This document shows positions 6,883 to 28,552 of a stretch of 64,000 nt of DNA, one piece after another (the first letter of the stretch is position 1; each line of letters begins with the position of its first letter). The DNA is taken from positions 11,076 through 75,075 of the forward strand of contig JAOACB010000005.1 in assembly GCA_026418055.1 (NCBI GenBank), in the 5' to 3' direction. A program made the position numbers and the translations under genes. Source of the stretch: Fimbriimonadales bacterium (GTDB lineage: Bacteria; Armatimonadota; Fimbriimonadia; Fimbriimonadales; Fimbriimonadaceae). Below the pieces are notes generated by a model. The model had not been told where the DNA came from and made no database searches. It saw nothing but the letters and a program-made list of their open reading frames with translations.

Positions 6883-8832
6883 ATGAATCTGCTTCGAAAC
6901 CTGCGCACACGCACGAAGCTGCTGCTGGGATTCCTCTTGGTGACCCTTCTCACGGTCGCATCCGGTTGGATCGCGCTGTCCAGCATCGGTTCGATGTCCG
7001 CGATCACGAACGACGTGGCCGTCGGGGACGTCGGCCGACTGAAGGCGCTCGTCGAAGTGACCTCGGCGGCCGGCTGGACGCGCCGAGCCGCCATCAACAT
7101 GGGTCTGGCTTCCAACGCGCAGCAGGCCGAGAAAGCCGCCGCGCGGTACGACGAGGCGAAGCGGGCGTACGAGGGAGCCATCACCAAGCTTCGGCAGTTG
7201 GTGCGGGACGAAGAGGGCAAGCGTCTCCTGCGGGACTTGGACTCCAAGTACTCGGCGTATCGGACGGCTGAGGACGCAAACCAGGCTCTGTGCCGCGCGC
7301 TCCGCCTCGAGGAGTTCCGCCAAAGCGTCAACAAGGGCGGGCGCGAGGCGTTCGCCAAGTTCGATGAGGCCCTCAAGAGCCTGGCGCAACACATCGAGCG
7401 CAGGGCTGTCGAGGACGGCGAACGCGCCGCATTCACCGCCAGGCGGGCTAGGGTGATGACGTTGGCAGGTCTGCTCGCGACCGTAGTGCTTGCCTCGGGA
7501 ATCGCCTTGCTGATTAGCCGCGACATCGCTGGCCAGATGATGGGCATCCGCCGTTGCCTGCGGGTGATCGTCGAGCAGGACGTTCCGTCATTCCGTCGAG
7601 CGATGGAGGCCATGGCCCGCTTGGACCTTACCGTGCGACCCCAGTGGAGCACCGAGGTGCTGCGGGTGCGTCGCAAGGACGACTTCGGCGACCTGGTGCA
7701 GAGCCTGAACCAGCTCGTGTGCGACCTCAAGGGCGCCTCGGACGGCTTGGAGGTCGTGCGCGAGAGCCTGAACGGCATGCTGCGGGACGTCTCCGCAAAC
7801 GCCGAGCACGTGGCGGGCCTCTGCACGCGGCTCGAGGAGGGCATGCAGGAGATCGGCCAAGCGACTTTGGAGATTTCGCAGTCTTCGGAGAAGCTGGCCC
7901 AATCGGCAGAAGGGACCTCCCGGGCGATGGCCTCGATGCGGGACCTGGTGGCCTCGGTGAAGGACTCCGGCGAGGAGCAGTGCCGGGCCGTCGCCGCGAC
8001 GGAGGAGGAGCTGGACGTTGCGAGCGAGGCCGCCGCAGAGATGGCATCGGCGGCCAGGGAGGCGCGCCGCATGGCGGAGAGCGGCCGCCAAAAGCTCGAC
8101 GCGATCGCGCGGGCCAACCAGGATATTCAGACCCAGGTGGAATCCACCACGCGCATGGTGGGAGAGCTGGACTCAGCAAGCGATCAGATCCAAACGATCG
8201 TCACAGCGATCCACCAGATCGCGGAGCAGACGAACCTGCTCGCCCTCAACGCCGCCATCGAGGCCGCCCGAGCGGGCGAGCAGGGCCGTGGTTTCGCCGT
8301 GGTGGCCGAGGAGGTGCGCAAGCTCGCCGAGCAGTCGGGCGCCGCCACCAAGGAGATCGCCGGGCTCATCGAGAACGTGCGCAACCGCGTGGCAGACACC
8401 GTGAAGGCCATCGGCGCCACCGCGCCGATGGTGGTGCGCTCGAACGAGATCACCGCGGACGCCCAAGCGAGCCTGCTGGAGATCTCTCAGACGGCGGACC
8501 GCGTGGCGGATCTCGCATCGCGCGTGGCCGAGGGCAGCCGCCGAGCCAAAGACGCTGTGGACCGCATCCGGGAGTCCGCCGAGGCGAACGCCTCGTCCAC
8601 CCAGAGGATGGCGCATCAGGCTAGGACGGTGGACGACGCGGTGCAGAGCGTGGCCGCCGCCTCCGAGCAGTTCGCCGCGAACACCGAGAGCATCACCGCC
8701 AACGTGCAGATGTTGGGCCGCTCGGCGGAGGCGCTCGATCAAACAGCCGACGGCTTGCGCCGAATGGTGCGCGGCTTCAGGCTGACGGAGGACGACGCCG
8801 CGGACGGCTTGGGGCTCGAGCGCGCCGCGTGA
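6883..8832 (+). CDS. Methyl-accepting chemotaxis protein
   Basis: 649 residues. TM1 at about 13-34, a helical periplasmic four-helix-bundle-like sensor of about 155 residues, TM2 at about 191-212, a HAMP-like linker, then a long coiled-coil signalling domain. The receptor tip is canonical: [20 protein letters not shown] then [16 protein letters not shown] near residues 449-485. It senses an unknown ligand and would signal to a CheA/CheW array. No che gene lies in the window. An AAAGGAGG ribosome site and a TATCCT box precede the gene. Confidence 0.95.
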
Positions 8833-8880
8833 GGGTCTTGGCGAGGAGCAGCGGACGGCCGCCGCGAAGCGCCGGCGGTC

Positions 8881-9258
8881 TCAGAACGTCAGCACCTGGT
8901 CCGACGTGGCCACCCAGCTTGCCAGCTCGGCCATCGAGCCGATCCGCACCCCTTCGATCCACGAAGCCCCCGCCAGGCCCCTCAGCTCGAGGCACAGGCC
9001 GCACGCCGCCACCTCGGCGCCGCGGGAGATCAGCCCCTCGATCCGCCGACCGAGGTTGAGGTCGTCGCTCGGAGCCGACTGCCCCCGAAGGCCCACGTTC
9101 ACCGCATCACCCATCAGAAAGACCCGAACCCTGCACGGGGGATCGCCCTCCTGCAGAGCGGAAGCCAGCCGGAGGGCGTTGTACGGGCGGTCGGTGCCGT
9201 ATCCGGGATCGTTCAGCACGATGGTCACGCTCTTCACAGGCCGCAGAGTACCCTGCAT
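8881..9258 (-). CDS. DsrE/DsrF-like family protein
   Basis: 125 residues. A DsrE-type alpha/beta fold: beta-strand SVTIVLNDPGYG, a helix with NALRLASALQEG, VRVFLMGDAVNVGLRG, and the conserved cysteine loop GAEVAACGLCLELRG. Proteins of this fold relay sulfur or act as small thiol carriers; two cysteines (ACGLC) are present, but no tus or dsr partner is nearby. The ATG at 9258 is supported by GGAGG about 10 nt upstream; a GTG at 9237 would remove seven residues. Confidence 0.75.
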   Translation of the reverse strand: MQGTLRPVKSVTIVLNDPGYGTDRPYNALRLASALQEGDPPCRVRVFLMGDAVNVGLRGQSAPSDDLNLGRRIEGLISRGAEVAACGLCLELRGLAGASWIEGVRIGSMAELASWVATSDQVLTF

Positions 9259-9297
9259 GTTCCGGGCCTCCGAAGGCCGACGGCCCCTGCAGAAGGA

Positions 9298-9915
9298 TCA
9301 GGCCTTGCGTCGGCGACGGGCCGCCGCCAAGCACGCCGCGGCGAGGGCCGTCGTCGCCGGCTCGGGCACCGGCGCTCCCCCCAGCACCACCTCGCCGGAC
9401 CACCGCAGGCCGTCGTCGCTCACCCACCCGTCGAAGCCCAGCGTGCCGTCGAGGCGCCAGCCTCCGAATTCCAACCCCGCCAGGCTGATGCCTTGGCAGA
9501 TCGGCGGCGGACCGAAGATCCGCGGCGTTTGGAACCACAGGCGCAGACGCTGTCCCGGCACGATCTCGATGAACCCGTCGGTGAGGCTCGGCGCGTTCCG
9601 GAACAGCCGCCATCCGGGTTCCTCCACCTCGTACACGTTCATCAACGGCCACGAAAAGCGGCCAAAGGAGGAATCCCATTCGACCTCGAACACCGTCATC
9701 CAAGAGGGCAGCCGCGACCGCTCCCACAAGCGGTCCAGCCAATCCTCCGCCTCGGGAGTCAGGAGCAACGGGAATTCGATCTTCGGCGGCTTCGGGCCGA
9801 GCTCGAGCAACGACACCTGGAATCGGCCGAACGGTTTTCCGGCCGGCTGCGCGCAGAGCTCCGCCGCAAGCCCGACCGCCAACGCGGCCACCGCGAGCAT
9901 CCTCGGGAATCGCAT
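9298..9915 (-). CDS. PEP-CTERM sorting domain protein
   Basis: 205 residues from the ATG at 9915. A signal peptide (MRFPRMLAVAALAVGLAAEL) leads an uncharacterised beta-rich body and ends in VPEPATTALAAACLAAARRRRKA, the PEP motif, hydrophobic helix and basic tail recognised by exosortase. The protein is expected to be exported, processed and held at the surface or in matrix; no exosortase gene is in the window. A GATAAT -10 box at 9955-9960 lies downstream of the longer possible start at 9963, and GAGGAGG sits 11 nt before 9915, favouring the shorter form. A polar middle rich in Trp and Pro has no recognised domain. Confidence 0.8.
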   Translation of the reverse strand: MRFPRMLAVAALAVGLAAELCAQPAGKPFGRFQVSLLELGPKPPKIEFPLLLTPEAEDWLDRLWERSRLPSWMTVFEVEWDSSFGRFSWPLMNVYEVEEPGWRLFRNAPSLTDGFIEIVPGQRLRLWFQTPRIFGPPPICQGISLAGLEFGGWRLDGTLGFDGWVSDDGLRWSGEVVLGGAPVPEPATTALAAACLAAARRRRKA

Positions 9916-9954
9916 CCTCGGCGCAACCTCCTCGGCAGAAATGTCTTTGCTCCC

Positions 9955-9960
9955 ATTATC
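9955..9960 (-). promoter_or_regulatory. -10 box of PEP-CTERM gene
   Basis: GATAAT followed by GGG on the minus strand, about 40 nt before the ATG at 9915, with the GAGGAGG ribosome site (9927-9933) between. It decides against the upstream start at 9963. Confidence 0.45.
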
Positions 9961-10085
9961 CATGATTTTGACTTTTCGAAAGGCGCGCGCCGATGCCCCT
10001 CCTGGGGCAGGCTCCCTTCCGCGATCCGTCCCAGCAGGCGCCGGGGCCGTCTTCGGCGGCCGATGAGGCGGTACGCTGGCGCGGC

Positions 10086-10574
10086 ATGGACGCAACCGAG
10101 GGCCTTCGATCGCAGTACGTCGCTCAGCTCGCCATGCTGGAGGACTGCATCCGCCTTTGCCCGAACGAGGCCTGGACGGCCGGAGAACCGCCGCGATCGT
10201 TCTGGCGGATCGCCTTCCACGCGCTGTTCTACACGCACCTGTACCTGATGCCTTCGGAGCGGGAGTTCGAGCGATGGGGGCCGCTGAGCGGACTCAGCGC
10301 CAGCCTGTGGGAGCAACGGCCTGACGACGCGGCCGGCGCCGCACCGCCGGCGCCCGAGGCGCTGCTCGGATACCTGGAATGGATCCGGTCCAACCTGCCG
10401 GCGTGGCTGGCGCGGCTCGACCTCGGCTCCCCCTCGTCGGGATTCCCGTGGTATCCGATCGGCAAGCTCGAGCACCAGATGGTCAACCTGCGCCACCTGG
10501 GCACGCACATCGGTCAGCTGCAAGAGCGGCTGTTCGCGCTCGGACTGGAGCCGCGTTGGGTCGGCAAAGCCTGA
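10086..10574 (+). CDS. DinB-like four-helix bundle protein
   Basis: 162 residues. Helical throughout, with the DinB/YfiT-type histidines in AFHALFYTHLYL and VNLRHLGTHIGQLQERL, which would form the metal-binding triad of the family. DinB-like proteins include thiol S-transferases and stress proteins of unclear function. The ATG at 10086 matches the family start (MDATEGLRSQYVAQLAMLEDC). A weak TACGCT box ends 8 nt upstream, so this gene may also be leaderless. Confidence 0.8.
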   Translation: MDATEGLRSQYVAQLAMLEDCIRLCPNEAWTAGEPPRSFWRIAFHALFYTHLYLMPSEREFERWGPLSGLSASLWEQRPDDAAGAAPPAPEALLGYLEWIRSNLPAWLARLDLGSPSSGFPWYPIGKLEHQMVNLRHLGTHIGQLQERLFALGLEPRWVGKA

Positions 10575-10580
10575 GGGGGG

Positions 10581-10655
10581 TGGTGGGCGGTACTGGATTT
10601 GAACCAGTGACCCCTTCGGTGTGAACGAAGTGCTCTGCCGCTGAGCTAACCGCCC
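10581..10655 (-). tRNA. tRNA-Val (anticodon CAC)
   Basis: The acceptor stem GGGCGGT/ACCGCCC closes a full cloverleaf. Anticodon stem CTTCG/CGAAG holds loop TTCACAC, with anticodon CAC (plus-strand gtg at 10621-10623). The T loop is TTCAAAT. The 3' CCA is encoded at 10581-10583. It lies between a DinB gene and a pilin gene and reads opposite to both. Confidence 0.95.
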
Positions 10656-10836
10656 GGACTGCCCCGCATCATACCCCAACCCCTCGCGAAAGGAAAGCCC
10701 CGTCCGCCTGCCCGGAAGCAGGCGACGAGGACGGTTTGGACCGTTCGACGAACCATCTGCCAGGCATTTCTCCTTGGAGGGCCAAAATCGAGCCAGAAAG
10801 ACCAAAATAGTGCGCCAAAACGGCCGTGCCATCGCT

Positions 10837-10842
10837 TACAAT
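10837..10842 (+). promoter_or_regulatory. -10 box of first pilin gene
   Basis: TACAAT followed by G, about 70 nt before the ATG at 10912. The leader ends in a near-perfect ribosome site GGAGGTAA. The preceding 150 bases after the tRNA hold no gene. Confidence 0.5.
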
Positions 10843-10911
10843 GCAGGCACCATCCCAAGCAGGGTGGATCTGGTCCGGCTGGCCCGGGCCGGACATCGGA
10901 GGTAATCGAGA

Positions 10912-11832
10912 ATGGTTCAGAAGCGCAGAGGCTTCACGCTCATCGAGCTCTTGGTGGTCATCGCCATCATCGCGATCCTGGCGGCGATCCTGTTCCCCGT
11001 GTTCGCGCAGGCCAAGATGGCTGCCAAGAAGACGCAGGTGTTGTCCAACGTCAAGCAGATGGGCCTCGCCCAGCTCATGTACGCGGCGGACAACGACGAC
11101 CTCTTCTCGCCGATCGCGAACTTCCAGGACGGCTGGAACCTCTGGTCGTTCGTCTCGCTGGTCGAGCCGTACGTCAAGAACTTCGGCATCTTCATGGATC
11201 CGCTCGGTCCGGCCAAGCCGACCGACAACCCGTTCGTGCTGAACAGCCAGTGGGCCATGGCGCCCCGCCGCGCCGCGGTGGCGAGCTGCCCGGGCGAGAC
11301 CGACCTCACCGGTTGCGCCATGGGCGCCTACAACTCGGCCGCGCTCACGCTGACCGGCGGCGTGCCCGCGGGCCGAGACGGCATCGCTGGAGCCAACAAG
11401 AGCCTGTCCGGCGGCTGGTACCACTACATCGTCGACCGGTACAACGGAGGCGTCCCATCGCTCAGTCAGTCGCAGATCAGCCGCGTGGCCGAGACCCTGC
11501 TGGTGACCCAGGCCAACCATTTCGACATGCTGTGGGGAAGCCGCAGCCTCACGCCGGACCGCGCCTACCGGCACTGGGCCGACGCGCCGTTCAACCTGTA
11601 CGGCGACATGAACATGACCTGCGGACCGGCGGCCCGCGTGAACGCCAGCGGCACCAAGGCCGGCATCTGGCCCACCAGCGTGATCAACATGACCGAGTTC
11701 CCCGAGGGCATGAACGTGGGAGTGTACGCCGACGGGCACGCCGTGGTCCGCCAGTGGCGCGAGATGCACACCAAGTTCGTCGATGGTCCGGGAGGAACCA
11801 AGTACATCGCCTATGCGGCTCCGCTCTACTGA
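10912..11832 (+). CDS. Prepilin-type protein with N-terminal methylation motif
   Basis: 306 residues. A short basic leader (MVQKRRG) precedes [18 protein letters not shown], the type IV/type II pseudopilin cleavage and assembly helix, then [38 protein letters not shown]. The globular part ends near [11 protein letters not shown], like the DGH motif of the DUF1559-like pilins expanded in Armatimonadota and Planctomycetes. Probably cleaved by a prepilin peptidase after Gly7 and displayed on the surface. A small lipoprotein gene overlaps its end by 20 nt, the same arrangement as at the second pilin (32291). Confidence 0.93.
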
Positions 11833-12052
11833 CCTGATCGTCGCGGCTCTGGCGGCGCTCGCTCTGGGTGGTTGCTCCTCCGGCAGCGAGCTGCCCAAGG
11901 AGCAGGACCAGGCTCTCCGCGAAGGCTTCCGGCGGACGATGTCCGAAGAGGAGGTGGCCAGGCTCAAGGGCCAAGCCCAGCAGGGAGGCGGCCAGCAGGC
12001 GGCTCCCGAGGGCTCCAGCACCGCCCCCGCCTCGGGACCCACCGCGGACTGA
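11813..12052 (+). CDS. Small lipoprotein following pilin
   Basis: 79 residues. A lipoprotein signal [20 protein letters not shown] precedes Cys21 (lipobox LGGC), then a charged helix ([23 protein letters not shown]) and a Gln/Gly/Ser/Pro tail. The ATG at 11813 lies inside the pilin gene, with a 20-nt overlap and a different frame, so it is probably translationally coupled. No recognised domain. The second pilin of the contig is also followed by a small membrane protein, which suggests a shared pilin-companion role. Confidence 0.75.
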
Positions 12053-12085
12053 CGAGGAACGCTCGACAAAGGAAAGGCGCTTCGA

Positions 12086-12117
12086 GGCCGCCGCCCGGGT
12101 TCCTCCGGGCGGCGGCC
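12086..12117 (+). terminator. Terminator-like hairpin after pilin operon
   Basis: A perfect 13-bp stem (12086-12098 with 12105-12117) with a 6-nt loop lies 34 nt after the lipoprotein stop. No T tract follows. The convergent DUF454 gene ends at 12134, so it may serve both. Confidence 0.6.
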
Positions 12118-12133
12118 CGGCTATTGCCCGAGC

Positions 12134-12559
12134 CTACGCCGGCGCCTTCGTGCGCACCCTCAGGATCACCCAGGTTCCCACCAAGCCGGAGGCGAACACC
12201 ACCGAGGGCACCCATGCGGGCCTGCCCGTGGCGGCCAGGTACGCGACCGACAAAGCGATGCTGACCCACAGCATCGCCAGCGCCACCCGCTTGGTCCGGA
12301 GGCTCATGCTTCGCTCCCGTTGCCAGTCCTGGAGCACGCCGCGGGCTGGAGACTTCTCGAGCAGCCACCTCTCGAACGCCGGGCAGCTGCGCTGGAACGA
12401 CCACAGGGCGACCAGGAAGAACACCGTGGCCGGCATGCCCGGAACCACCAAGCCCAGGTAGCCCAGACCGACGCAACCGACGCCCATCAAAGCGAACAGC
12501 CAGCGGATGCCGCGGTGCGCGAGTCTGGCGTCGGTGGTTTCGGTGCGGGCTCTCTCCAT
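12134..12559 (-). CDS. DUF454 (YbaN-like) inner membrane protein
   Basis: 141 residues with about four hydrophobic segments. The family signature is clear: LGYLGLVVPGMPATVFFLVALWSFQRSCPAFERWLL, a first hairpin followed by a conserved aromatic amphipathic stretch, then a second hairpin ending RVRTKAPA. DUF454 proteins have no established function. The ATG at 12559 has GGAG 8 nt upstream. It is divergent from fabG. Confidence 0.85.
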   Translation of the reverse strand: MERARTETTDARLAHRGIRWLFALMGVGCVGLGYLGLVVPGMPATVFFLVALWSFQRSCPAFERWLLEKSPARGVLQDWQRERSMSLRTKRVALAMLWVSIALSVAYLAATGRPAWVPSVVFASGLVGTWVILRVRTKAPA

Positions 12560-12720
12560 GCGGCGCTCCAACCCCTGCGAATCCCATCGGCCGGGCGGCC
12601 GGGATTCCGCAGGCGGATTGCGCTGAAGGTACCCGTCGGCGCGGGAACCCGGCTCGGCCCTCGTGGGCCTCCAAAGCTGGTAAAACGCAGGGGCATCTCG
12701 CCTGGGAGCTAGCAGCAACG

Positions 12721-13461
12721 ATGGATTTCAGCAACAAAGTGGCCGTGGTGACCGGCGCCAGCCGGGGCATCGGTCGAGAGATCGCCGTCCAGCTCGCCGC
12801 CCGAGGGGCGGCCGTGGCCTGCGCCGCGCCGGCCGTCGACCCGGCGGACGAGACCGCGGACCTGATCGCGCAGTCCGGCGGAACCGCCAAGGCGTACGTG
12901 TGCGACGTCACCCAGACCGCCGAGGTCGACGCGCTGTTCGAAGCCGTGCAAAAGGACCTGGGCGGGCCCGCCATCCTGGTGAACAACGCCGGGATCACCC
13001 GAGACCAGCTCATCCTTCGCATGAAGGACGAGGAGTGGGACAGGGTGCTTGCGGTGAACCTGAAGGGCGCCTTCCTGTGCACGCGGGCTGCCGCGCGGCC
13101 GATGATGAAGGCCCGCTACGGCCGCATCGTCAACATCGCCAGCGTGGTGGGCCTCGCCGGCGCGGCGGGCCAGGCCAACTACTCCGCGAGCAAGGCGGGC
13201 CTGATCGGGCTGACCAAATCCACCGCCAAGGAGTTCGGCAGCCGAGGGATCACCTGCAACGCGGTCGCGCCGGGGTTCATCGAGACGCAGATGACCGCCG
13301 AGCTGCCCGCCGAATTCAAGGAGCACGTGATCCGGACGGCGCCCCTGGGCCGCCTCGGCCAACCGATCGACGTGGCCAACGCCGTGCTGTTCCTGGCTTC
13401 CGATATGGCCTCGTACGTCACTGGCCAGGTGCTCACGGTGGACGGCGGGTTCATCCTGTAG
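12721..13461 (+). CDS. fabG: 3-oxoacyl-[acyl-carrier-protein] reductase
   Basis: 246 residues, a classical SDR. NADP-binding TGASRGIGREIA near residue 12, the NNAGITRD motif with DEEWDRVLAVNLKG that is typical of FabG, catalytic Ser in NIASVVG, YSASK with the catalytic Tyr and Lys, and NAVAPGFIETQMT. It reduces 3-ketoacyl-ACP in fatty acid elongation. It stands alone, without acpP or fabF neighbours, and a GGGAG lies 12 nt before the ATG. It ends in TAG. Confidence 0.92.
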   Translation: MDFSNKVAVVTGASRGIGREIAVQLAARGAAVACAAPAVDPADETADLIAQSGGTAKAYVCDVTQTAEVDALFEAVQKDLGGPAILVNNAGITRDQLILRMKDEEWDRVLAVNLKGAFLCTRAAARPMMKARYGRIVNIASVVGLAGAAGQANYSASKAGLIGLTKSTAKEFGSRGITCNAVAPGFIETQMTAELPAEFKEHVIRTAPLGRLGQPIDVANAVLFLASDMASYVTGQVLTVDGGFIL

Positions 13462-13559
13462 CCGCCGCGGCTTGCTCGCTCGCATGGCATATGGTCCGCC
13501 TCAGCGCCGCGGCGGACCGCTCCCACCGTTCCGCTACCTTCGGAGCCACCCGGCGGGGC

Positions 13560-26191: not shown

Positions 26192-26872
26192 CTAGTAGGC
26201 AAACCGAGGGTCCAGCAGTTCCCGAGGGATGGCCGCCTCGATGCGCTCGATGCTGCTGTTGCGGCCGGAAGCCTGCAGACCGAGGATGGTGACTTGGATC
26301 ACCTCTCCCTTGTCCCGCCAACCCTCCGTGATGCGGCGGCACTCCCGCAGATCCTTCTCCGCGACGTTCTCCGTTCCGTAGTCCGTGAGAACGAGCACCC
26401 GAGCCGGCTTCGGCAGGTCCCTCAGGCGCCTGTCGACGGTCCGCAGGAAGTTCGGCAGCGACGTGCCGAAGTTTCTCGGATCGACGCCCACGCGCATCCA
26501 GCCGGTGATCAGAGCCGTCGCAGGTTCCTCGCCGCGGGGCGGCTCGCCCGAATACAGCACGTTGGCCCGCATGTCGAAGCAGAGCGCCTCGAGGACCTCC
26601 GCGTCGTAGTGCTCGAGCAGCAGCTCGCGCAGCTGGCTGAGTGGCCCGGCGAGGTCCTTGTCCATGGAGGACGCCGAGACGTCGAGCCCGACGACGACGG
26701 AGCGGGGACGAACCGGGCTCTCACGGGGTTCGGCGCTCTGTGGCCCGGTCGACACTCGGACATCGTCTCCTAAGATGAGTGAGCCGATAGCGGCCGAGAT
26801 GATCACGATCCCGACGACGGTTCCGACTACGGCGATCCAATTGGTGCGAAAGGGGGACAGATGATGGCTCAT
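26192..26872 (-). CDS. Membrane-anchored vWA-domain protein
   Basis: 226 residues. One N-terminal membrane helix (IAVVGTVVGIVIISAAIGSLIL) anchors an external von Willebrand A domain with a complete MIDAS: VVVGLDVSASSMD (DxSxS), the Thr of NFGTSLPNF and the Asp of VLVLTDYGTEN. Such domains bind ligands through a metal. The ATG at 26872 has AAAGGA 9 nt upstream. It lies 23 nt after a polytopic coiled-coil protein gene on the same strand, and the pair is probably one operon. No known system is recognised. Confidence 0.8.
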   Translation of the reverse strand: MSHHLSPFRTNWIAVVGTVVGIVIISAAIGSLILGDDVRVSTGPQSAEPRESPVRPRSVVVGLDVSASSMDKDLAGPLSQLRELLLEHYDAEVLEALCFDMRANVLYSGEPPRGEEPATALITGWMRVGVDPRNFGTSLPNFLRTVDRRLRDLPKPARVLVLTDYGTENVAEKDLRECRRITEGWRDKGEVIQVTILGLQASGRNSSIERIEAAIPRELLDPRFAY

Positions 26873-26895
26873 GGTTGTTGTTCCTTTCCGATTGT

Positions 26896-28308
26896 TCAAG
26901 GCCTTTGGAAGCCTCGAGAGATCTTGTAGGCGACGATCTGCTTCTCGAGCTTCTTGATGCGCAATCGCACAGAAGCAATCTCGGTCCTGTACTTCTGGAA
27001 GGCTTGAAAGTCGGGGTCCTTCTCCAGCCTTCGTCGGAGCTCCTCATCCTCCTTCGCGCGCTCCCGAGCCTCGCTCAGCCTCTCCTCGTACTCTTGCTGC
27101 TCCCTGTCGATCCGCAGCAGCTCGTCTTGCTCCCTGCGACGCCGCTCCTCCTCGGCTCTCTGCCGCTGCTCTTCCCAAGCGCGGCGCTTCTGCTCGAGGA
27201 CCGCCTCCCGATGGGCCTCGTTCTTCTCGTCCAGAGTCAGCGAGAAGTTGCCAGCGGCGTACTTGCTGTAGGCCTCCATGACCAAGAGCGGCATCGTCAC
27301 GCAAAGAGCCACCAGGATCAGAACGATCCAAGGCACCTCGTGCTGCGCCACCGCGCCCGGCAAGGTCCACACTCTTCGACTCAGGTAGGTCTGGAAGGCC
27401 GCCGCGCCCAGCGCGACCTCGGCGACGATCATGGCCAGCGTGATGAGAAGGGCAGAGACGGTGGACCACCACGAACCGCCGGAGAGACTCTTGGCGTTTC
27501 TACGGCCGAGCGTGTACCAGATCGTACCCACGGCCGCCTTCATCCCAGTGACCAATCCCACGCCGATCAACATGCAGCCGAGCGTGTAGTACAGCTTCTC
27601 CAGGCCGAGCGCGTTGCCCAAGACGCCGCTGAGCATGCCGACGCCGTATCCGACGAACATGCCCGCGAGAACGGCCACGACCCAACCGATCCAATCCCGG
27701 TAAGGCGTCTCCTTGCCCGCGTACGGCTTCTCCTCGACCCACCCGGGAACGGCCGACACCGCGGCGCCATCGAGCGGCGCGTCCGCCGTGGGCCTGTGAC
27801 CGAGGAGGAAGAACCTCGCGGGACCCTTGGGCGCATCGGCTCCCTCTCCAGAAGCAGGCGCACCGACGGCCGTCCTGCGTTCTGGCGGATCGGAGCCGCG
27901 CTCTCCATTCGGTTGCGGCTCCGGCGGAGCCTCTTGTTCGAACGAATCGTCGTCGCTCAGGTGGAAAACCCTTCCATCGGGCTCGACCCATTGGACGCGC
28001 GACTCCTCCAGCCAGCGACGGTGCGGGGCAGCCATCGGTTCGAGAGCCACGGTCCGAAACAGCGCGTCTTTCTCGGGATCGTAGAAGAGCCCGAGCGCTC
28101 CGGCATGGTGACCTGCCTTGCGCTGCAACTCCAGCAAGGCATCGTACCAACGCTCGAGCTTCTCCTCCATTGCCGCAACCGTGCGGTCCGTGTGCTCGTC
28201 GTGGGCCTGCCGAGCCCTTTTCCTCTCGCGGTAGGCCTCCTCCACAGGATCTTTGTCGGAAGCGCCGTCCGCGCCGACCTTTGTGCTGTTCGCTTGGTTT
28301 CCGGGCAT
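26896..28308 (-). CDS. Polytopic membrane protein with charged coiled coil
   Basis: 470 residues. An acidic, Pro-rich soluble N-terminal part of about 200 residues, with a coiled segment near residues 25-60, is followed by roughly four membrane helices (DWIGWVVAVLAGMFVGYGVGML; YYTLGCMLIGVGLVTGMKAAVG; STVSALLITLAMIVAEVALG; VPWIVLILVALCVTMPLLVM). A long Arg/Glu coiled coil fills about 360-460. AAGGAGG precedes the ATG. No homologous family is recognised. It is the first gene of a pair with the vWA protein and could scaffold it at the membrane. Base composition is slightly less GC-rich in places than its neighbours. Confidence 0.7.
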   Translation of the reverse strand: MPGNQANSTKVGADGASDKDPVEEAYRERKRARQAHDEHTDRTVAAMEEKLERWYDALLELQRKAGHHAGALGLFYDPEKDALFRTVALEPMAAPHRRWLEESRVQWVEPDGRVFHLSDDDSFEQEAPPEPQPNGERGSDPPERRTAVGAPASGEGADAPKGPARFFLLGHRPTADAPLDGAAVSAVPGWVEEKPYAGKETPYRDWIGWVVAVLAGMFVGYGVGMLSGVLGNALGLEKLYYTLGCMLIGVGLVTGMKAAVGTIWYTLGRRNAKSLSGGSWWSTVSALLITLAMIVAEVALGAAAFQTYLSRRVWTLPGAVAQHEVPWIVLILVALCVTMPLLVMEAYSKYAAGNFSLTLDEKNEAHREAVLEQKRRAWEEQRQRAEEERRRREQDELLRIDREQQEYEERLSEARERAKEDEELRRRLEKDPDFQAFQKYRTEIASVRLRIKKLEKQIVAYKISRGFQRP

Positions 28309-28552
28309 CGTCTTTGTCCTCCTTCCAGTAGTGTCAGGCGACCGGGCGTTGCCAGCCCGATCACCAAAATCACCTTCTCGGGAGGAGCAAGGATCGTGTC
28401 AACCCGAACCGAAAACCGCAGGAATGCTTGGGGGCGTTCGTCCTGAAGCGAACGCCCCCGCCCGTTCGGCCCCAGGACCGAAGACCGAAACCCTTGGTCC
28501 CTGCCACCGCAGTGGGTTCTGCAGGGTCCGGGTTCCGCGACGGCCCGAGCGC

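Follow-up and report, generated by a model that had tools for sequence, protein, structure and literature searches.

Cytoplasmic AAA+ proteins are the best-known partners of vWA proteins, and the binding of extended peptides by a MIDAS is described in the available part of one study (PMC7159879). Furthermore, the VWA domain of alpha2delta-1 contacts a loop of CaV1.1 and CLCA acts on TMEM16 channels, as set out in the available portions of two others (PMC6231325, PMC11231702). The gene pair described here gives vWA biology a conserved partner of another type, a four-helix membrane protein. It is encoded on the minus strand of the window, by which we mean the whole stretch of 64,000 nucleotides that was analysed. 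The first gene (26896..28308, minus strand) starts with ATG and encodes P0002, a membrane protein of 470 aa; the second (26192..26872, minus strand) encodes P0001, a vWA protein of 226 aa, also from an ATG, and the ORF list gives for it a longer TTG start at 26899 as well. The first-pass annotation had described a 470-residue frame and a vWA frame 23 nt apart, and both were indeed present on this strand, separated by an intergenic gap of 23 nt (26873..26895, minus strand) that contains GGAAAGGA, the ribosome-binding site of the second gene. The Shine-Dalgarno region of the membrane-protein gene, GGAAGGAGG, occupies 28309..28326 (minus strand); AAGGAGG precedes the ATG of P0002, and both genes have Shine-Dalgarno-like sites. 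The two frames had GC3 values of 0.80 and 0.84, the median for the window being 0.90. Far from the pair, positions 22-40 of the window matched exactly, over 19 bases, a sequence that we take to be the mosaic end of the Nextera transposase. Shuffled sequences gave a chance expectation of 0.00 for this match, which points to residual adapter sequence in the assembly or to a chimeric join at this place.

Since the pair recurs in relatives, it is not a product of chance. A vWA gene adjoined the membrane-protein gene on the same strand in 56 of 59 related Armatimonadota loci, the window included (class 1, 13/13; class 2, 21/21; mobile class, 15/15; others, 7/10), a count taken on fetched wider stretches that keeps the misses L220, L222 (vWA about 700 nt away) and L232 and leaves out some TM-profile matches (for example G112 and G165), the duplicates L230, L231 and L142, the weak matches L022, L023 and L037, L141 (membrane gene not called), L221 (a vWA, but with the membrane ORF below threshold) and L086 (vWA E 2e-8, partner not recognised). 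Separation of the genes in relatives had been named beforehand as something that would speak against a two-gene system, and adjacency was what we found. Among 61 relatives, P0001 was matched in 11 and P0002 in 12, and the ten genomes carrying both had them adjoining. The vWA profile matched 18 of 113 class genomes, 13 strong matches making up the class-1 pair, and the TM profiles matched 19, 29 and 46 of 291 phylum genomes (union at least 54/291). The class-1 frames overlapped by 11-47 nt in eight of the ten genomes measured; in the remaining two they were separated by 9 and 23 nt. Scanning genome contigs with a single peptide pattern gave three loci, the named relatives being Fimbriimonadaceae bacterium ACE_ARM1 and Armatimonadetes MAGs; from these and from the kinship of the genomes matched, the window probably belongs to a member of Armatimonadota related to Fimbriimonadaceae. 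The same kind of pattern gave 20 matches in viral contigs, none of them a relative, and tblastn gave no match in plasmids (P0002 and the L085 and L088 membrane proteins as queries) or in phages (L085). Our literature search found nothing on this pair, on DUF2135, on DUF2135 with a vWA domain, or on replication-relaxation with VWA. Read within Armatimonadota, the pair is a real, conserved and uncharacterised two-gene membrane module.

The module occurs in three settings, and the first-pass annotation, which was right that the pair is real, had missed the three-gene and mobile-element versions. In class 1, the type found in the window, the membrane-protein gene precedes the vWA gene on the chromosome (13 genomes). 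No neighbour family was seen to be common to the surroundings of this type outside the synteny of G000 and G002, and none recurred in more than two among 75 flanking proteins of class-1 loci. In class 2 the vWA gene comes before the membrane-protein gene, a gene for a DUF2135-like membrane protein follows both in 20 of 21 loci, and PF09906 (DUF2135) was confirmed for the trio protein of L088 with a score of 23.8 against a cut-off of 22. This third gene of the trio was absent from all 13 class-1 genomes in a PF09906 search whose E. coli control gave a match. Of the 15 loci that make up the mobile class, 14 carried one or more markers from the set recombinase, integrase, Xis, ArdC, coupling ATPase and Replic_Relax. 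Seven of the 15 had a TrwB-like coupling ATPase, Replic_Relax and a zinc-ribbon gene beside the pair, always with vWA before the membrane protein, and six with ArdC or Xis, without the coupling ATPase, had the membrane protein before vWA; Pfam confirmed TrwB_AAD_bind for three of the ATPases and Replic_Relax for six genes. In this phylum, which has been little studied, an uncharacterised membrane family is linked to mobile-element genes for a TrwB-like coupling ATPase and for Replic_Relax.

This linkage could mean that the polytopic protein is a membrane platform for DNA transfer, seating a coupling ATPase that has no membrane domain of its own as in the pIP501 type, and that it was domesticated in the window. 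None of the coupling ATPases showed two N-terminal membrane helices (L082 and L216 had one borderline segment each), and coupling proteins without a membrane domain that team up with small membrane proteins are described in the available part of PMC7434980. However, we regard such a transfer platform as quite unlikely: in the marker scan, which covered the mobile class, 12 class-1 relatives and 10 other loci, mobile-element markers, the ATPase, Replic_Relax, integrase and ArdC among them, were found near none of the class-1 relatives and none of the others, and no coupling ATPase was recognised among the called window neighbours. Moreover, the elements may have borrowed the pair, because more than one type of element carries it and it is also found away from elements. 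As the pair exists with and without coupling ATPase and Replic_Relax genes, a comparison of mobile-element and chromosomal versions could separate transfer, sensing and exclusion.

Several loci seen in this survey deserve a record of their own. Other families of the phylum have very long relatives of the membrane protein, open frames of 742-988 aa that lie near a vWA gene or adjoin one (L222, L223, L226-L229). At L086 7327-10529 (G104), an uncharacterised membrane protein stands between a vWA lipoprotein and another vWA protein (PF00092), an arrangement not recognised as this pair. A similar HTH/sigma-like protein, judged by eye, precedes the pair in two distant genomes (L084 5621-6280 and L087 from 5375), and in L087 it was read as one frame with the vWA. 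Beside the vWA-TM pair of L087, positions 8657-13556 (G133) hold a protein kinase, then a single ORF combining FHA, reverse transcriptase and TOTE-type archaeo-eukaryotic primase domains, and then Cas1.

P0002 consists of a helix-hairpin head (residues 1-102), an acidic disordered linker (103-201), four membrane helices (202-355) and a coiled coil (356-464). Its AlphaFold model has helices at 202-226, 236-273, 280-315 and 327-355, followed by 359-430 and 432-464, with moderate confidence (mean pLDDT 75.6, pTM 0.42). The "about four" membrane helices expected at the outset proved to be exactly four hydropathy segments, and four were found in all 13 class-1 proteins. The predicted charged coiled coil of about 100 residues was likewise borne out (105 residues in the model; 53% charged over 356-464, net 0), and the part first described as a soluble acidic head resolves into a helix (21-71), a beta hairpin (74-85) and the disordered linker, which carries the acidity (net -8). 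The loop between helices 2 and 3 was net positive in 13/13 class-1 membrane proteins, and loops 1-2 and 3-4 were mostly near zero. By the positive-inside rule both ends of P0002 would be cytoplasmic, a topology that rests on loop 2-3 because the charges flanking the membrane region in the window protein are -1 on the N-terminal side and 0 on the C-terminal side.

No curated Pfam or NCBIfam family reached its cut-off for P0002 or P0001, and PADLOC and PHROGs gave weak matches only for the pair, PADLOC none for P0002. The best family match of P0002 was TgpA_N (PF11992), over the membrane helices, at 22.0 bits (E 9.2e-5), below the gathering cut-off of 30. Weak matches to TgpA_N, FHIPEP, TraP of IncI1 and Rz-like spanins (Pfam, NCBIfam, PHROG) were set aside as helix or coil resemblance. 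A profile of 13 membrane proteins had no significant match in the PDB (best E 0.85), and none of 126 Foldseek matches of P0002 reached E <=0.001; its Foldseek and VIA rows (best Z 8.6, long helices) were not used. The description of an unrecognised two-gene membrane system therefore still holds for curated families and, for the membrane protein, for the PDB. Given the moderate confidence of the model, the absence of a structural match does not prove a new fold.

Two charged residues lie within the membrane helices. Lys257 of helix 2 (codon 27538..27540, minus strand) and Glu297 in the middle of helix 3 (codon 27418..27420, minus strand) were kept as Lys and as Glu/Asp, respectively, in 13/13 class-1 proteins, and all 56 aligned membrane proteins had an acidic residue either at 297 or, a helical turn further along, at 301. 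The two charges may pair in helix packing or contribute to an ion path. The latter would make the four-helix core an ion or solute channel or transporter whose assembly or opening is controlled by the tethered external MIDAS domain, as with alpha2delta and CLCA, and a vWA tethered outside beside a polytopic protein would suit it. On balance we consider a channel or transporter improbable: no sequence or significant fold match to any channel was obtained, buried charges can merely hold helices together, and Lys257 was not kept outside class 1. As a sign of a pore-forming partner, the charges are suggestive only.

The second protein, P0001, has an N-terminal membrane anchor (about residues 13-30) and a putatively extracytoplasmic vWA domain (about 55-226). 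Foldseek assigned the vWA fold with E 2.8e-6 and probability 1.00, and VIA-align gave Z up to 14.5 with an rmsd of 2.7 A over 155 residues, many vWA domains scoring equally well. No Pfam vWA model was matched over its cut-off, which is a criterion of the library and not of structure, and so the placement rests on the fold and the MIDAS; a class-2 homologue did pass PF00092 (31.6 against 23.8). The membrane-anchored vWA with an intact MIDAS claimed from the letters alone was recovered, with D64, S66, S68, T137 and D164 (DxSxS...T...D) invariant in 13/13 class-1 sequences and the N-terminal helix 13-30 modelled at low confidence. DxSxS was absent from 4 of 37 vWA ORFs, all four in elements with coupling ATPase and Replic_Relax, and MIDAS binding is therefore not required in every version. 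Export signals of the class-1 proteins, assigned by eye (the search pattern missed one lipobox and matched one anchor helix), comprised a lipobox in 9/13, a membrane anchor in 3/13 (G000, G002 and G097) and none visible in 1/13 (G070). From the lipoboxes of relatives or the N-terminal anchor, the vWA is predicted to lie outside the cytoplasm. The vWA of G070 (L078 360-881), without visible signal or anchor, has an in-frame stop codon upstream and is possibly a truncated or misassembled copy.

MoxR proteins are cytoplasmic. MoxR genes (PF07726) were present in all 13 class-1 genomes with 31 matches, as would be expected if the locus were an ordinary MoxR-vWA chaperone pair with its AAA+ subunit encoded elsewhere in the genome. 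However, none of the 31 lay near the pair, each being on a different contig or, where the contig was shared, at a distance of at least 390 kb, and the vWA bears export signals, which makes an ordinary chaperone pair of this kind highly improbable. The first-pass annotation had correctly seen no AAA+ gene here, MoxR genes being elsewhere in these genomes, and had missed the probable reason: no AAA+ gene adjoins the pair because a vWA that is exported, as predicted, could not meet a cytoplasmic AAA+ protein.

P0002 is homologous to 55 further aligned Armatimonadota proteins. In hhalign, class 1 matched classes 2 and 3 with 97.3% and 98.0% (against three and four sequences, respectively). Because membrane proteins can score by composition, a class-3-only profile (A13) was tested on forward and reversed class-1 and class-2 proteins, and it matched 34/34 forward (lowest 12.2 bits, median 58.8) and 0/34 reversed. 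In a tree of the 56 membrane domains, built from a short alignment of 156 columns with long branches, class 1 and class 2 separated with support of 100 each. Pairwise identity among 12 compared genomes was 20-38% for the membrane protein and 20-45% for the vWA. Furthermore, the distances of the two proteins correlated with r = 0.53, and with a partial r of 0.53 given MutS. Only 2 of 2000 Mantel permutations attained this value; the comparison covered the 66 pairs formed by 12 genomes, and G054, without a MutS orthologue, was omitted. The two proteins thus co-diverge beyond species relatedness. The vWA distances did not follow MutS (r 0.07), and therefore co-transfer could add to the co-divergence.

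Between G000 and G002, of the same genus, nine syntenic neighbours were 66-93% identical, whereas the vWA reached 33% and the membrane protein 34%; by tblastn the figures were 65-93% for the neighbours and 30-31% for the pair. In G001 (73% complete), considered for the empty site, no orthologue of the flanking MCP was found. Four-fold sites were nearly saturated throughout this block, the neighbours being close to random pairing, and therefore the identity gap cannot tell rapid change from replacement. Such hyperdivergence amid nine neighbours at 66-93%, the patchy occurrence of the class-1 pair (13 of 113 class genomes) and the related pairs in integrative elements, some with ArdC antirestriction genes, would be expected of a conflict module, that is, a fast-changing surface pair for exclusion, self-recognition or defence on mobile elements and chromosomes. 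We nevertheless hold a conflict module to be unlikely. No defence island was seen among 75 flanking proteins of 12 class-1 loci; among 25 families listed of 76, one cytosine methylase was the only likely defence gene, the other flanking matches belonging to household families such as cysteine desulfurase. The best PADLOC match of the pair had E 0.029 (IetA, for P0001; PADLOC-DB 2.0.0), and class 2 often occupies a stable place beside genes that, by our own reading, are smpB- or ruvB-like. In addition, the synonymous sites of the neighbours were near saturation too, which fits fast evolution and replacement alike. Extreme divergence at a conserved locus nevertheless makes the pair a test case for surface arms races.

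Our leading interpretation, to which we give not quite an even chance, is a two-subunit inner-membrane complex with a sensing or relay role. The architecture and the pairing on which it builds have good computational support, and the adjacency in 56/59 loci, the co-divergence and the overlapping or nearly touching frames are consistent with a complex. Both genes would form a translational unit for it. In the polytopic subunit, the four membrane helices with their conserved buried charges would connect two cytoplasmic parts, the N-terminal helix-hairpin head and the C-terminal coiled coil, and the vWA subunit would be tethered to the outer face, by a membrane helix in the window and by lipid in most relatives. 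There the metal of the MIDAS might bind an acidic side chain, so that the vWA could capture an envelope ligand or the short outer loops of its partner. Capture would alter the four-helix core, the change would be passed to the cytoplasmic coil, and the coil may then recruit or control a cytoplasmic partner, which in some mobile-element versions could be the adjacent coupling ATPase.

Compared with known systems, the complex proposed here resembles the MoxR AAA+/vWA systems (RavA-ViaA, VMAP and the iSTAND ternary systems), as they appear in the available part of PMC7159879, in that a MIDAS vWA protein and its partner are encoded next door to each other. It differs from them in that the partner is a four-helix membrane protein and not an AAA+ protein, the vWA is predicted to be extracytoplasmic, and no MoxR gene is nearby. 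We know of no counterpart of the vWA subunit in TraJ/TraI of pIP501. The likeness to that system, as far as the available part of PMC7434980 describes it, is a membrane-protein gene beside a coupling ATPase without clear N-terminal membrane helices, an arrangement shared by the seven mobile loci and different from the window, which is without a coupling ATPase. The alpha2delta and CLCA proteins (PMC6231325, PMC11231702) too place an external MIDAS vWA beside a polytopic membrane protein. They are eukaryotic, and neither sequence nor fold connects these systems with the membrane protein of our pair, whose channel activity is putative. It is possible, and in our view rather doubtful, that the pair represents an undescribed class of bacterial membrane machine, found in chromosomes and in the transfer modules of integrative elements, in which an external metal-dependent vWA would drive or gate a four-helix core with intramembrane charge and a cytoplasmic coil would provide the readout, a layout that would be the prokaryotic counterpart of membrane proteins regulated by alpha2delta or CLCA.
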